In this document: one piece after another, positions 1 through 6,095 of the stretch
Layout: the number at the start of each line of letters is the position of its first letter
How positions within the stretch are numbered: the stretch's first letter is position 1
From: Hydrogenovibrio sp. SC-1
Lineage (GTDB): Bacteria > Pseudomonadota > Gammaproteobacteria > Thiomicrospirales > Thiomicrospiraceae
DNA length: 64,000 nucleotides
Direction: 5' to 3'
NCBI RefSeq assembly: GCF_002848135.1
Contig: NZ_PKGB01000002.1
Span: 1 to 64,000 of the forward strand
Program-made: the position numbers and the translations under genes
Notes under the pieces: model-generated
The model's input: only the letters and a program-made list of their open reading frames with translations
The model's database searches: none
What the model was told of the DNA's origin: nothing

Positions 1-93
1 CACCTGTTAATTGGAGTTCGATGCAATAGAAATTCGACTTTCTAAAACTTGAAGGCAGCATTTTTCCGATGTCTGTAATATTTAACAAAACAT

Positions 94-324
94 TTAGCCT
101 TTTGGTGGATGAGGATCATTCCCATGACTATCCTTTCGGGCAATCTTCCCATCTTTGTTATGAATAACTAGCTCTGTTTCTTGCTTCTTGCTGAGTTGCC
201 GTCCACGACTCTCAGCTTCTTTCTTCGTATCAAAATGACCCGATGACCTTTCTGAACCAGATTGACGAATATCCCAGCCACCACGTTCACTATTTGGTAC
301 CACATGAGTGCTTTTCTTTGACAT
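94..324 (-). CDS. DUF2188 small protein, transposon cargo
   Basis: A 76-residue protein with the DUF2188 pattern: an HVVP start, GGWDIRQSGSERSS, then DTKKEAESRGRQL and ELVIHNKDGKI, ending with a DSHGNDP tail. These small proteins are common in bacteria and on mobile elements, and their function is not established. A clear AAGGAG ribosome site lies about 10 bases before the ATG. It is on the same strand as the RelA/SpoT gene but 147 bp downstream of it, so it may have its own promoter. No membrane segment or signal peptide is visible. The family call is firm; the role is unknown. Confidence 0.8.
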   Translation of the reverse strand: MSKKSTHVVPNSERGGWDIRQSGSERSSGHFDTKKEAESRGRQLSKKQETELVIHNKDGKIARKDSHGNDPHPPKG

Positions 325-471
325 AAACTACAACTCCTTACAAGTTAATGATTTTAATCAGCTTAATTAACGTTCTCATCAGATCAGTGTACTCATGATT
401 AGCACCCTTTGTCTCATAATAATCATCTATTGTCATTTTCAAAATCTGGCTATTTCAATAATTGGCGAATT

Positions 472-1557
472 CTACCCTTTGGAACTTCCACTCGCGAGGT
501 CGTTCGGCCAAATAGCCAGTCTACTCGCCCTTAAAGCTTCCTCTTCTCGACAATAATCAGCGGCACTTTTACTAAAAACACTATCCAAAGCCTCTCTCGC
601 TGAAGTAATTTTATCCAAATATGCTGTATCTATCGTAGGATCATTAATAGATCCCAAAATTGACATAGGATCACGATTACTTTTTTTCAACTTATTAAGT
701 TCATCCCTAACTTCTGATAGTTTTTCTTTAGTGGCCTGAGATTGCGATTGCTCACTTTCCAGTTTACTCATCAGATCTTCGATTTTTTCAAGGTGTTCCT
801 GTCTCTCCTTGTCCACGCTTTCTCGTAATTGTTCATGAATCTGAATTTGAGTTGTTAAAGTTTTCACAAATGAACCCATTTCATCAGCGCTCCCTGCCAT
901 GCGATTAAAAACTCTCAAAAAGTAAGCCAGCACCTCATTGTCTGAAAAGTTTGGATACCTTACCTGGTGGTCAATCTCACTCCAAGCTTCTTCAAATAGC
1001 GTTCTTACCTGTATTTCGCACACAAACCTGTTTTTTGTGGGTGATGATTCAACTATATAGTGAATCGAGCGATATCCAGCATCGTGTTTTTTTATTTCAC
1101 AGCCCTTCCTCTCATAGACAGTTTCATCATCTCCATCTCTTACAAACGCAACGGTAGGTTCGTCGGTTGACCAGTTACTATTAACGAACAAATCAATTGT
1201 TTCCCAATCGTCTTTAAATAGGTGGAGCACTCTTACACCGATCAAATCCGTCACTTTTTCATGGTAATTTTCAACCGAAACATCCTGATACTTAACTGAA
1301 CCATCAAGCTTTTTACGAACAAGCTTTGCCATCAAGTGATCTGTATCTTTTACTCGCCACCTCACTGAGTGTACTTTGCTACAGGCTCTCAGGGATTTAG
1401 CAATAAACTCAGCGGAATCATTCAATGCCGAAAGACGAGAGTCATGGTGGGTGCCAATCTCTTTTAAATCATCCCAATCCAGCTCAGAAGCCTCCCACTT
1501 ATCACGTGAAAGATGACTCTTATCTAGAAATTTATCCAAATTCGTTTCAAATCCCAT
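472..1557 (-). CDS. RelA/SpoT-domain (p)ppGpp synthetase-like protein
   Basis: A protein of about 361 residues with a RelA/SpoT nucleotidyltransferase domain at roughly residues 50-200. Visible motifs are VTDLIGVRVL (metal-binding Asp), HDAGYRSIHY and CEIQVRTLFEEAW, so the synthetase core looks intact. There is no HD hydrolase domain before it and no TGS/ACT regulatory region. A coiled coil (about 235-300) and a short helical tail follow. I chose the ATG at 1557, preceded by GAGTGAGG; a GTG at 1569 directly abuts the upstream stop. The start sits at the end of the TnsE-like gene, so the two are probably translationally coupled. It may make an alarmone or, like toxic small alarmone synthetases, act in abortive defence; the sequence cannot decide between them. 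Confidence 0.8.
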   Translation of the reverse strand: MGFETNLDKFLDKSHLSRDKWEASELDWDDLKEIGTHHDSRLSALNDSAEFIAKSLRACSKVHSVRWRVKDTDHLMAKLVRKKLDGSVKYQDVSVENYHEKVTDLIGVRVLHLFKDDWETIDLFVNSNWSTDEPTVAFVRDGDDETVYERKGCEIKKHDAGYRSIHYIVESSPTKNRFVCEIQVRTLFEEAWSEIDHQVRYPNFSDNEVLAYFLRVFNRMAGSADEMGSFVKTLTTQIQIHEQLRESVDKERQEHLEKIEDLMSKLESEQSQSQATKEKLSEVRDELNKLKKSNRDPMSILGSINDPTIDTAYLDKITSAREALDSVFSKSAADYCREEEALRASRLAIWPNDLASGSSKG

Positions 1558-1569
1558 ATATGACCTCAC

Positions 1570-3390
1570 TCAATCCCTTAACTCATTAATATCTTCAAAA
1601 ATCCCACAAATAGCCCTATGCAATCGCTCCTCAAAGCTATCATTGTCACTTCCAGTATGCTTCATACTGGTCACCACAAAATCTTCAAGGATCTCATCTT
1701 TAATCTTGGAGCCGGAAGAATTAGCTATCTCAAACATCAATGATCGAGCACCATCAGAATGATCTAAGTAACCATGCTGACCACCTCTGAAAAGAAACAA
1801 CGAGTAACTGACCTCACCTTTGCCTTCGATTTCCAGCAAATAAATCGTTTGTCCGCTTTGGTTCGAGATAGCTAAAAACAAGGCTCTTCGACTTCTATCA
1901 CCGACCATATCCCATTCATAGCGTCCACTTTTTTCAGTAGGCCGTTCAAAGCTATACAAGCCAAATGGAAGAGTGGAATCCACCCGATTAACCGGTAACG
2001 CCTCAACAAACCATCCGCTCTCTTTTTCAAGCGCCGCAACCACAGCATTTGACACAGTAACCAACCTTTCCGAAATCGGTATTGGTTCGGAATCCATAAT
2101 GCGATTATTCCAAGCCTGTAAGTCATTGTCCTTTTTGTGATCACCCGGTAAAGTGCTTCCCTCATCAGAATCAGAGTCTTTTTCTTGCTGGTAGTGACGT
2201 TGCTTCTCTTTTTCAGATACTTTCTCAACTTTTTCAACCTCAACATCTTTTAAATGGCTAAACCGTTGCATCATAAACTTCAGCTCTTCTGGTGCTATGT
2301 TATTTGTCGGTCTTTCACCTTCTTTTAAATTTGGAGCATTAGACTTACCGTCATCACCTTCATCTTTTCTTTTTGGCTTGGAAGGCTTCGGGTCAGAATC
2401 TTCATCGACTGTACCACTGGACTTGAAGGAATCAACAGATTCAATTTTGATTTTTTTGAAAGGTAAAGGGTGATCGCAATCCTCGATTGTTCTGACCATA
2501 TAGGTTGTAAATTCTTCTTCGCCATCTCTTGGTGGCAACCACTGTCCGAAAACTTCCAAACTGGTATCACCAGAAAACGGCAAATAGGTTCTTGGGCAAA
2601 ATTCAGAAATCATACGGCCATCTTTGGTTTTAAACTTTTTCTTTGCATTCACTAGTGAAGCATAGATATAACTCATGGCACCCATTGCAGCTTTATCAGT
2701 CAAGGCACGGGCAATCATAAAAGCATCTGAGTCGTAACAGTTCCTTTTTAGCCAAATATAGGCACTCTTATCCGTTTCATCAAACTCATATTTAAAGAAC
2801 AGTCTGTTGGCTTGTTGGGAGTTCTTAAAGTCACTAAGCGCTCCATTGAAAAGCTCTTTTGTAAAGTAAGTAGAACCAGAAAAATAATAACGAATCACCT
2901 CGGTTGTAGGAATCAATACGGTGATAATTTTGCCATTGACTTTTGAGTTCGGGAACTTCAGAAACTGCACACCATAACCTTGGTAAATGAATGGTATTTT
3001 GGTACCAAGCTTTTCTTCATTGTAAAAAGAGATTACATCCGCTTCTGCTTGATTGATAGAAACATTGGTTAATTCAGAGGATTCCCATACTGGAGAACTA
3101 TTTCTCCAAACGGTACCGGGCTTTAAGAAGATAAGATTAGTTACATCGACTTTTATGGATAGGTTGGCTGTTTTGTCGATTTGTTTTGACTTGAAAATAT
3201 CTTTTGCGGGAATGGACTTTATTTTTTCGAGAGATTGATACTCATCTGAGTAGCGTGAGAAGTTAACGATTAAGGTTTTAAAGGGCATTGATGAGTCATG
3301 TGCATTTTCGAATGAAACACTTCTGACTATATCGAGGCGGTAAAAAGTATCGGGCTGAGCTTTTTCAATGAGGGCGTTTAGCGTGAACAT
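1570..3390 (-). CDS. Probable TnsE-like transposition protein
   Basis: A 606-residue soluble protein starting 139 bp inside the transposon end, with a strong AAGGAGG ribosome site. From memory of Tn7 TnsE I see the same layout. An N-terminal region contains IPTTEVIRYYFSGS. A segment with FGQWLPPRDG and YMVRTIEDCDHPLPF follows, then a long acidic low-complexity linker (about 325-425), then MMQRFSHL, and a C-terminal domain with RRALFLAISNQSGQTIYLLE that matches the TnsE C-terminal pattern. TnsE directs Tn7 into DNA being replicated, through the sliding clamp. In Tn7 itself tnsE is the innermost tns gene, whereas here it is the first gene from the end, which is odd. The similarity is remembered and not computed; otherwise it is a hypothetical transposon protein. 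Confidence 0.45.
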   Translation of the reverse strand: MFTLNALIEKAQPDTFYRLDIVRSVSFENAHDSSMPFKTLIVNFSRYSDEYQSLEKIKSIPAKDIFKSKQIDKTANLSIKVDVTNLIFLKPGTVWRNSSPVWESSELTNVSINQAEADVISFYNEEKLGTKIPFIYQGYGVQFLKFPNSKVNGKIITVLIPTTEVIRYYFSGSTYFTKELFNGALSDFKNSQQANRLFFKYEFDETDKSAYIWLKRNCYDSDAFMIARALTDKAAMGAMSYIYASLVNAKKKFKTKDGRMISEFCPRTYLPFSGDTSLEVFGQWLPPRDGEEEFTTYMVRTIEDCDHPLPFKKIKIESVDSFKSSGTVDEDSDPKPSKPKRKDEGDDGKSNAPNLKEGERPTNNIAPEELKFMMQRFSHLKDVEVEKVEKVSEKEKQRHYQQEKDSDSDEGSTLPGDHKKDNDLQAWNNRIMDSEPIPISERLVTVSNAVVAALEKESGWFVEALPVNRVDSTLPFGLYSFERPTEKSGRYEWDMVGDRSRRALFLAISNQSGQTIYLLEIEGKGEVSYSLFLFRGGQHGYLDHSDGARSLMFEIANSSGSKIKDEILEDFVVTSMKHTGSDNDSFEERLHRAICGIFEDINELRD

Positions 3391-3461
3391 TGGTATTCAG
3401 CCTCCTTTGATTAAGTTGACTGAATCTCAGCAAAAGTAAAAAGAAACTAAACCAGAACCCT

Positions 3462-3529
3462 ATTCTCAAATAATTCTGTAGATTCTCATTTAATTTTGGA
3501 ATTATCAAATAATTTTGGAGTTGACAACA
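3462..3529 (-). repeat. Transposon terminus with three 20-bp TnsB-like repeats
   Basis: Three direct repeats stand head to tail with exact 20-bp spacing at 3462-3481, 3482-3501 and 3502-3521. They share ATTCTCAAATAATT or a close variant, followed by YTGKAG or TTGGAR. They are followed by the terminal nine bases TTGACAACA (3521-3529), which read TGTTGTCAA from the end inward. Tn7-family ends carry several about 20-22-bp TnsB sites next to a terminal TGT, so this is the expected architecture of one element end. Confidence 0.8.
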
Positions 3530-4633
3530 GCGACCTTGCGGGTCATCCGCAAAAAAACCACTGGGTGTGGGGTTCATTGCACAAATTAATTGAACTCTAG
3601 CGGGATATCGAACCTTTTGATTTACCCGGGTAATATCAACGTGACCCGTTTCTAAAGGTTCACGTAAAGCCTCTAACACAGATCGACTAAATTCAGGGAG
3701 TTCATCTAAAAAAAGGATGGAGTGATGCGCCATTGAAATCGCACCCGGCTTGGGTTGAGAGCCACTGCCACCCCCAACCATTGCAGCCGCAGTTGCGGTG
3801 TGATGAGGCTGCACTAACTCACGGTGGAAAAACGCATCAGCAGCAACTTGCTCGCCGGCAACGGATCGAATGGAAGCAACTTCGATGGCTTGCTTCAACG
3901 ACAAATCCGGTAAGATGGTTAATAGTCGAGAGGCTAACATGCTCTTTCCCGCACCCGGCGGTCCAACCATCAACAAAGAATGTCCACCGGAAGCGCAGAT
4001 TTCCAATACACGTTTCGCTTGCTGTTGTCCACGAATATCCGCTAGGTCTTCTTCATAACGCGGTGGCGAAGGCGGGGTAGCGCTTGGCGGGACCAATGAT
4101 TTCCCTGCCATAAAGAATTGACACACGTCTAATAAATGCTCAGCCGCCAATACTGGGGCAGTATCAATTAAACTGGCCTCTGCCAAGTTTGCTTTTGGGA
4201 TAATCAAAATACGCTTTTGTGACTTAGCTTGTATCACAGCAGGCAAAATTCCCGGAACCGCTCTTAAACTGCCATCTAAAGACAATTCACCCAAAAATTC
4301 ATACCCGTTAAATGAGACCTCTGCTTCGGGAAGTTGCCCCGTGGCTTGTAATATCCCTAACGCAATCGGCAAATCGTAACGCCCACCTTGTTTGGGTGTG
4401 TCCGCAGGTGCTAAATTAATGGTGATACGTTTGGGCGGCAACGTAAAGCCACTATTCAATAGCGCACTGCGTACGCGGTCACGACTTTCTTTTACCGACG
4501 CTTCTGGCAAGCCCACCAAAGACAAGCTAGGAAGTCCATTCGTACTATGAACCTCAACTTGTACCTCTGGTGCTTGTATCCCCAGTACGGCTCTTGAATA
4601 AAGCGTTGCATAGTGACCCGTGTTTTGATTCAT
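3530..4633 (-). pseudogene. comM (yifB) 5' part, interrupted by transposon
   Basis: The first 368 residues of the Mg-chelatase-like AAA+ ATPase ComM/YifB, a helicase that promotes branch migration during natural transformation. It has the N-terminal domain, Walker A GPPGAGKS (224-231), Walker B SILFLDE (305-311) and arginine-rich VRYPARVQLICAMNPTPSGFF. The frame breaks after QGR, where the family continues CRC; full-length homologues are about 500 residues, so roughly 130 are missing and probably lie beyond the other end of the element. Reading through the transposon end adds about 54 foreign residues and overlaps the TnsE-like start. It follows ubiK by 12 bp in one operon. Transformation efficiency is probably reduced but not abolished, because dprA is intact. 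Confidence 0.88.
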
Positions 4634-4645
4634 AACAAGGAGACG

Positions 4646-4900
4646 TTACTCCGAATCGCTTTGACGGGCTTCAAGCTCAGCAACTTGCCTTTCAAGCGCC
4701 TCTAATTTAGAACGCGTTTTTGCTAAAACTGCTTTCTGAATATCAAATTCCTGTCGTGAAACCAAATCCAGTTTCTCAAACTGCACACTCATGGTTTGTT
4801 TTAAATTCTGTTGAACATTCTCAGGGATTTTACCGAGGCCAGGCGGAAAGACCTGAGTGATTGCTTCAACAAAAGATTCAAGCTGCTGCGCGTTAACCAT
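4646..4900 (-). CDS. Ubiquinone biosynthesis accessory factor UbiK
   Basis: An 84-residue BMFP-domain protein of the YqiC/UbiK family. Such proteins are small coiled-coil factors that help the soluble Ubi complex, with UbiJ, make ubiquinone under aerobic conditions. It shows an amphipathic N-terminal helix (SFVEAITQVFPPGL) and a C-terminal coiled coil (LAKTRSKLEALERQVAELEARQ). I chose the ATG at 4900, placed six bases after GGAGCGAG; a GTG one codon earlier is less likely. It lies directly upstream of comM, a pairing common in gammaproteobacteria, and is divergent from the diguanylate cyclase gene. Confidence 0.85.
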   Translation of the reverse strand: MVNAQQLESFVEAITQVFPPGLGKIPENVQQNLKQTMSVQFEKLDLVSRQEFDIQKAVLAKTRSKLEALERQVAELEARQSDSE

Positions 4901-5033
4901 CACTCGCTCCTAATTAATGAAATGGGCATTCAATATACCCGATTAGAGCCATTTTTTCTATTGTAACTCTAGGGTTTAGCTTTAAAGACGTGTAGAATAA
5001 TTGTAAATTTTAGAAACCTGAACAGGAAACCCT

Positions 5034-6095
5034 ATGCTTATTGATGTAAAAGATGCACCGGATAAAGCGCAACGCATTTTTGTTCAGCTGGTCGATGTAT
5101 TTGAAGATCAGGAAATTAACCCCACACCGCTTAACTATTATATTTGGTATCAATACTACAAAGGCAGTAACCCTAAATTTCGACAAGAAATGGACGCCGC
5201 CCTTCAAGACCCATTTGGCTACAATGATCGCCTTGGCCGTCGACTATACGATGAATATTTTGCCGAGGATGAAGGCACCAATGACTTTGACCGCGCCTTG
5301 AAACGACTCGTTGGTTCAGTCGTTAAGCGAATGAACGTTTGGAGTGCAAAACTCGAAAAACACACACAAGAACTGGATCAAAACTTACATACGCTATCCG
5401 AAGAATCACTCGATGCTGAAAAGTTAAAACAATTAACGAGTCACATGTTGAACACGGCGACTTCCATGAAGCAATCCAGCGAAGAATTTCAACATGAAAT
5501 GAACGAAAGTAACGCTGAAATCAACCGATTGCGGCAGGAATTAATCGAGGCTAAGGCTGAAACCCTGACAGATGAATTAACCGAACTAGGCAATCGAAAA
5601 GCCTTTAATAATACCCTTCAAGACTTAGTTGAACAAACGCCCGACAACCCTGAAAGCTTAATTCTGATACTGACCGACATCGATCACTTTAAGCGGTTTA
5701 ACGATACTTTTGGTCACTTGGTTGGCGACAGTGTTTTACGCTACTTTTCGAATATTATGAAAAAATCCAAACAGGAAAATGATTCTATTTGTCGCTATGG
5801 GGGAGAGGAATTTGCCATTATTCTCTCTCATAGCAGCCTTGAAAAAGGGCTTCAACGAGCTGAAAAAATTCGGCATTCACTGGAACACGCCGTACTGAAA
5901 CGGAAAGATTCAGATAAAACCTTGGGAACCATCACTGCTTCATTTGGGGTTGCTAGCTATAAAGGTATTGACACTGAAAGTATTGATGACTGGATTAAGC
6001 GAGCTGACGATGCCCTCTACAAAGCCAAGAGCAACGGCAGAAATCAAGTTGTGAGTGAAACTGAACTCAGTCGTGTAACGGATGCCCCAAAATAA
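5034..6095 (+). CDS. GGDEF diguanylate cyclase
   Basis: A 353-residue cytoplasmic protein expected to make cyclic di-GMP from GTP. The N-terminal 170 residues are helical, with a coiled coil around 105-175, and look like a sensor of no recognised family. The GGDEF domain follows: TDELTELGNRKAF (179-191), DIDHFKRFND, GGEEF at 256-260 and the final ADDALYKAKSNGRN. The position of the inhibitory RxxD site reads QEND, so product inhibition through the usual I-site is probably absent. No membrane segment is present. Its stop codon lies inside the palindromic terminator shared with the convergent SPOR gene. Confidence 0.9.
   Translation: MLIDVKDAPDKAQRIFVQLVDVFEDQEINPTPLNYYIWYQYYKGSNPKFRQEMDAALQDPFGYNDRLGRRLYDEYFAEDEGTNDFDRALKRLVGSVVKRMNVWSAKLEKHTQELDQNLHTLSEESLDAEKLKQLTSHMLNTATSMKQSSEEFQHEMNESNAEINRLRQELIEAKAETLTDELTELGNRKAFNNTLQDLVEQTPDNPESLILILTDIDHFKRFNDTFGHLVGDSVLRYFSNIMKKSKQENDSICRYGGEEFAIILSHSSLEKGLQRAEKIRHSLEHAVLKRKDSDKTLGTITASFGVASYKGIDTESIDDWIKRADDALYKAKSNGRNQVVSETELSRVTDAPK

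Follow-up and report, generated by a model that had tools for sequence, protein, structure and literature searches.

The window analyzed, a stretch of 64,000 nucleotides (bases 1-64000 of contig C2 in the 41-contig draft assembly of Hydrogenovibrio sp. SC-1), begins inside a mobile element that interrupts comM, a bacterial gene of DNA recombination. The 5' part of comM, codons 1-369, occupies positions 3527-4633 on the minus strand and was identified by matches to TIGR00368 and PF13541/PF01078. Its frame runs from 4633 down to 3527 and stops at the insertion, the gene being cut at 3526/3527, after codon 369 (QGRC). Among the relatives searched, the top match to these 369 residues was the uninterrupted ComM of genome G003, with 83% identity. 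In comM sense the sequence reads GGT CGC TGT up to the join and TGTCAACTCC beyond it, with TGTCAA as the first foreign bases. A preliminary description of this DNA had placed the join between the Arg and Cys codons; it lies 3 bp away, after the Cys codon. The element ends in a terminal hexamer, TGTCAA in comM sense and TTGACA on the plus strand (3521-3526). Positions 3527-3531 on the minus strand, within the comM part, hold one copy of the duplicated 5-bp target site, which reads ACAGC on the plus strand and GCTGT in the sense of comM. The three 20-bp repeats reported earlier on the foreign side are real: repeat comparison and a core-pattern scan placed three adjoining repeats of ~20 bp on the plus strand at 3462-3520 (3462-3481, 3482-3501 and 3501-3520), repeats of the comM-5' end to which TnsB probably binds. 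A 17-bp repeat-core pattern, with at most two mismatches allowed, matched three times in the whole 64 kb, each time at 3462-3520, compared to 0.45 matches expected; three matches were reached in 1 of 100 shuffles.

The part of the element that lies in the window spans positions 1-3526. Reading inward from the comM-5' end on the minus strand is a gene for a 606-aa protein (1570-3390), a candidate TnsE-like gene by the position of its homologues in other elements and by a weak C-terminal similarity. It is accompanied by cargo genes on the same strand, encoding a 365-aa RelA/SpoT-domain protein with a C-terminal coiled coil (472-1569; PF04607, E 1.6e-19), possibly an alarmone enzyme of stress or defense, and a 76-aa DUF2188 protein (97-324; PF09954, E 1.4e-20), of which an 89% identical copy is found inside the element of G008, a member of the same genus.

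Because the window starts at base 1 of contig C2, the second end of the element, which was to be sought to the left, cannot lie upstream on the same contig. It was found on another contig, C35 (6469 bp; locus L032), which also holds the only match to the comM C-terminal domain in this genome. C35 contains, in order, a cargo fragment, tniQ (910-2052; Pfam TniQ), tnsC (2055-2966; Pfam TniB), tnsB (2963-4900; Pfam Mu-transpos_C, the Mu-type transposase C-terminal domain), tnsA (4897-5607; both Pfam TnsA domains), the element end, GCTGT and the 3' part of comM. The element occupies bases 1-5721 of this locus, its terminus is the inverted repeat of the hexamer in the window, and GCTGT follows directly. 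The core-pattern scan gave three matches here (5600-5616, 5654-5670 and 5696-5712, one of them with two mismatches), compared to 0.05 expected, and three were reached in 0 of 200 shuffles. When the element and one GCTGT were removed, an open ComM of 512 aa resulted, identical to that of G003 in 417 of 514 aligned columns. The expectation of a Tn7-like element end inside comM was thereby borne out, since both comM parts, matching ends, a target duplication and the tnsABC and tniQ genes are all present; the duplication is GCTGT at both ends and not GCGAC as proposed. The middle of the element, between the C2 and C35 parts, is unplaced and could hold further genes.

Tn7 is characterized by a TnsA/TnsB/TnsC/TniQ core, arrays of ~20-bp end repeats, a 5-bp duplication and a conserved target gene, glmS. 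The focal family shares this organization, with tnsA, tnsB, tnsC and tniQ in one run, repeat arrays, TGT/ACA-type ends, a 5-bp duplication and a conserved target gene. However, in contrast to Tn7 (TnsABCD+E), the focal element sits inside its target gene and breaks it, its TniQ/TnsD protein is short, and the TnsE-like gene lies at the other end and gives no PF18623 match. The focal locus is a Tn7-like element in comM, spread over two contigs in this genome. A simple deletion or assembly join at the comM end, which the position of the comM halves on separate contigs of a draft genome might have suggested, has a negligible probability and was ruled out, as the ends match and are flanked by a 5-bp duplication, the 512-aa ComM frame is restored, and the same structure lies on single contigs in G008, G009 and Thiomicrorhabdus cannonii.

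Focal-type elements were found at codon 369 of comM in six hosts from two genera, the focal host included. G008 and G009, of the focal genus (loci L033 and L034), and T. cannonii (G439, L042) hold complete elements of 17,858, 17,834 and 18,161 bp, each on one contig, and two Thiomicrorhabdus metagenome-assembled genomes hold parts (G438, L041; G440, L043). The three Thiomicrorhabdus carriers, which belong to another genus of the same family, correspond, judged by contig number and coordinates, to G447 (G438), G462 (G439) and G464 (G440) of our survey of the order. Homologues of tnsA, tnsB, tnsC and tniQ are present in the same order at all five further loci, L043 being cut inside tniQ by a contig end, and the tnsA side faces the comM 3' part in 6/6 carriers. 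TniQ of the carriers has ~370-390 aa. An all-against-all comparison of the ORFs of at least 50 aa in the three complete elements, with overlapping shadow frames set aside, identified only tnsA, tnsB, tnsC, tniQ and the 606-aa TnsE-like gene as equivalents common to all three. In a TniQ search of 62 genomes of the order, nine had a match at E<=1e-30. Six of them are the carriers (one contig-cut); of the others, G002 holds a remnant, G442 a fragment at a contig end and G001 a distinct element. One more fragment, containing a stop, is present in G008. Among 369 genomes drawn from the class, the focal genome alone passed at E<=1e-40. A scan of all species for TniQ returned three Thiomicrorhabdus records and nothing else, but the two peptide patterns searched with were strict, and the true host range may be wider.

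The preliminary description had also put the join at the codons used by Tn6022/AbaR elements in Acinetobacter. With the same query, comM of A. baumannii NZ_CP104448 proved to be split at residue 288-290, whereas the focal break is at residue 369, 80 codons downstream of the Tn6022 site (residue ~289); the suggested kinship was right in kind, as both are Tn7-like and in comM, and wrong in place. The A. baumannii element contains tnsABC, tniQ and TnsF, and the duplication read from its junctions is GCGGT. This agrees with the 5-bp accgc repeat given for AbaR25 in a passage of PMC3691203, accgc being the reverse complement of GCGGT. G002, a genus mate of the focal host, carries a ~31-kb TnsABC-TniQ element at the Tn6022 residue; it encodes a TnsF-like protein of 482 aa, and its duplication is GCGGT. 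That the focal element is a Tn6022/AbaR element (TnsA, TnsB, TnsC, TniQ, TnsF, TnsE) at the known site is highly improbable. The two share the gene, the tnsA-tnsB-tnsC-tniQ order, the 5-bp duplication and the tnsA side adjoining comM 3', and each has another gene, oppositely oriented, at its far end. However, the residue broken differs, the focal TnsB and TnsA are only 35% and 28% identical to those of the Tn6022-like element in G002 (TnsB 33% to the A. baumannii comM copy), and Tn6022/AbaR has TnsF (tniE/orf3) beside tniQ, whereas no TnsF was found in focal-type elements. The G002 TnsF-like query gave no match at E<1e-4 at the focal C35 locus or the five further loci (L032, L033, L034, L041, L042 and L043). 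Queries from G002 and A. baumannii gave a best E of 0.23 in the complete G008, G009 and G439 elements and the focal and G438 parts, a search by sequence that could miss a distant TnsF and that covered the focal element minus its unplaced middle. Both queries matched the A. baumannii comM element (2.9e-48 and 7e-134). The Tn6022 codon was refuted for the focal insertion by position, and the absence of TnsF agrees.

Further breaks at the Tn6022 residue were seen in G178 and G141, with duplication GCGGC; the TnsF match covers most of the length in G178 and 123 residues only in G141; comM of G429 and G423 is also broken near residue 287-292. A third position is occupied in G159 (L056), where a Tn7-like element with duplication GAGTT interrupts the Walker B codons at residue ~316. 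It holds tnsABC and encodes a TniQ of 374 aa; the adjoining gene, of 628 aa, is taken for TnsE-like on the basis of its C-terminus. One TnsF query gave no match in this element. Like the focal element it combines tnsABC with a short TniQ in comM, but it uses another codon and its TniQ is 25% identical. A PDB sequence search with the 628-aa protein gave nothing useful, and a plasmid scan with it gave no match. Given breaks at residues ~289, ~316 and 369, Tn7-like elements use three comM positions in the material examined. The focal insertion, at a spot other than that of the well-known Acinetobacter resistance islands and with no sign of their known targeting protein, suggests that mobile elements settled on comM as a target on more than one occasion. 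The material is a sample: 332 of 370 genomes of the class had a comM match, 32 genomes drawn from among the matches listed were re-searched (25 that had at least two matches and 7 whose best match was weak, selected by eye), and 10 of these 32 loci were opened beside the focal one. Tn7 proteins were present in three of the ten (G159, G178 and G141); five others (G049, G194, G130, G254 and G023) gave no Tn7 protein matches in short stretches near contig ends or comM. The remaining two hold large comM inserts, of 35 kb in G322 (L050-L051) and 23 kb in G185 (L057-L058), with no matches to the Tn7 proteins used. Within G002, the Tn6022-like element contains part of a focal-type element (L035 4367-9392 and L036 4284-4568), with its comM-5' end repeats, a remnant of tniQ and stretches ~97% identical to G009 in which the 606-aa gene lies. 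The two families that target comM came together in this host.

We compared target duplications and comM phylogeny between carriers. The duplication is GCTGT in the focal host and G009, GTTGT in G008 and G438, and GTTGC in G439; the pair is identical within the host in 5/5 hosts with both ends visible, the sixth carrier, G440, showing one end. Agreement of the two copies inside a host, together with three distinct sequences between hosts, speaks for repeated insertion of the focal-type family at the same comM codon. In a tree of 17 comM N-terminal regions, five carriers need five changes, and the well-supported branches alone (3 of 14 inner branches) force at least three. A single ancient insertion passed down vertically to all carriers would fit the finding that every carrier falls in one taxonomic family, and the comM tree has a weakly supported backbone. 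Even so, we consider it very unlikely, and it was rejected on the differing duplications together with the tree, in which the well-supported nearest relative of the focal host, G000, is the uninterrupted G003, and G009 pairs, again with good support, with G002, the holder of the other element.

TnsD of Tn7 recognizes glmS. By analogy, and since the tnsA end faces comM 3' in the six carriers, recognition is expected on the comM 3' side. The KISGPLLDRID codons, which lie there at 42-74 bp counted from the duplication's first base, are identical in 6/6 carriers, an identity that reflects coding conservation and is no proof of recognition. An RNA guide for comM was rejected: the best 32-mer in the three complete elements had 21-22 matches to a 600-bp stretch of host comM surrounding the insertion, no better than the 21-24 matches obtained with shuffled comM flanks (5 shuffles each). 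No Cas effector was present among the cargo proteins scanned from G008 and G009 (8 by Pfam, 10 by PADLOC). The G008 cargo has CARF and PRTase_III-A model matches and the G009 cargo a PRTase_III-A match, names of CRISPR-accessory proteins. Structure prediction for TniQ from three sequences gave a mean pLDDT of 38, too poor for use.

We regard as probable a model in which a Tn7-like transposon with TnsA, TnsB, TnsC, TniQ and, at the opposite end, a TnsE-like protein was inserted into comM by its own transposase, with a short TniQ and TnsC selecting the site without TnsF. In this model TnsB would bind the end repeats, and TnsA together with TnsB would provide cut-and-paste movement. We infer that TniQ itself finds comM, probably through the conserved KISGPLLDRID codons ~40-75 bp beyond the tnsA end, much as TnsD reads glmS. 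A second route, directed to plasmids, would be served by the TnsE-like protein, and a host that has lost ComM would be predicted to be less able to recombine transformed DNA. The broader proposition, that comM was taken at least three separate times at three codons and, in the focal lineage, with a ~380-aa TniQ alone, without a TnsD extension, TnsF or guide RNA, seems to us evenly poised between true and false.

The other candidate selector is the 606-aa protein. In 5/5 elements in which the comM-5' end was seen, a homologue is located close to it, at a distance of 130-140 bp in four and 1.5 kb in G009; in G438 the contig breaks off after the first ~105 residues of the protein. The gene is oriented oppositely to tnsABC-tniQ and sits at the element's far end, the place also occupied by the TnsE candidates of the A. 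baumannii comM element and G002. In Tn6022, according to a passage of PMC10293859, tnsE is likewise on the opposite strand. TnsE_C (PF18623) was not matched by Pfam in 4/4 members of the 606-aa family at E<=10, nor do the Tn6022-type TnsE candidates of G002 and an A. baumannii plasmid contain it. When the family was aligned by hhalign to Tn6022-type candidates (two, later three, chosen by position or mutual similarity), the C-termini were colinear, with P values of 0.018, 0.0021 and 0.00038 as rows were added and probabilities of only 3, 13 and 36%. In pairwise comparisons, 6/12 pairs of 606-type members with Tn6022-type candidates scored above all 100 shuffles. The profile of the 606-aa family gave no meaningful match to a canonical TnsE with PF18623 (G163); pairwise scores against G163 TnsE were above all 200 shuffles in 2/4 members, partly via a low-complexity linker, and in 1/3 Tn6022-type candidates. 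A TnsE-like identity of the 606-aa protein is unproven. Structure prediction from its single sequence gave a mean pLDDT of 33, too poor for use, PDB searches with the protein and its alignment returned nothing useful, and a scan of viral contigs for the family found none; a plasmid scan gave three weak partial matches at 26% identity.

It is possible, though we think it unlikely, that in the same transposon this 606-aa protein or a host factor acting in trans finds comM, TniQ being a mere bridge as it is for TnsF in Tn6022. Passages in PMC10293859 regard a short TniQ as a sign of another selector and describe many short-TniQ loci without an identifiable partner, perhaps using one in trans; on that reading TniQ alone may not suffice, and the carrier TniQ has only ~370-390 aa. 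The 606-aa gene is, moreover, the only other gene with equivalents in all three complete elements. Against its role as selector, a homologue (24% identity over 330 residues) occurs in the G001 element at another site, beside hslO, and the protein weakly resembles candidates for TnsE, which is a replication/plasmid selector. The G001 element (L089 4496-18213) is Tn7-like and encodes this homologue, of 559 aa, at its far end; hslO was named by eye, and comM of this host is intact. A second 606-type gene copy, with an internal stop, is present in G009 (L034 4599-6257) and by eye resembles the 559-aa protein.

That mobile elements also use comM in hosts other than Acinetobacter has been described in passages of PMC10293859 and PMC4774983. 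The gene is given there and elsewhere as a target of Tn6022 and its relatives (PMC10293859, PMC12904642), of the transposon Tsy (PMC10293859), of integrase-type elements (PMC4774983) and of a CRISPR-guided element (PMC11406308). Tsy, a tyrosine-recombinase transposon with TnsF, and the integrase-type elements share the target gene with the focal family, but they are recombinase-based and do not use TnsABC. The word comM is absent from the main text of a large survey (PMC8649781). In the open-licence literature searched, no account was seen of the codon-369 site or of a Tn7-like element that targets comM with neither TnsF nor a guide, and large published Tn7 tables may contain such loci. Sections of PMC4774983 and PMC11472951 propose that mobile elements may gain by lowering transformation-mediated removal, and the focal family adds cases of comM-breaking elements in line with that idea. 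PMC10293859 left open how short-TniQ elements with no identifiable partner choose their target. The focal family is an example for which the site is defined, and because this site is precise and repeatedly used and five genes are shared, the question of target choice becomes directly testable. If TniQ does act alone, a ~380-aa TniQ can read a chromosomal site without a TnsD extension, TnsF or guide RNA.

Beyond the five shared genes, the cargo differs between the complete elements. Their DNA-methylase genes are weakly alike in all three (22-34% identity, E 1e-4 to 1e-6) and not otherwise equivalent, and both G008 and G009 have genes matching type IIG restriction models. A cassette with PRTase-CE, ORC-CDC6-like, CARF-like and methylase genes lies in the G008 element (L033 3875-8973) and in a matching stretch of G439, two elements from hosts of different genera.
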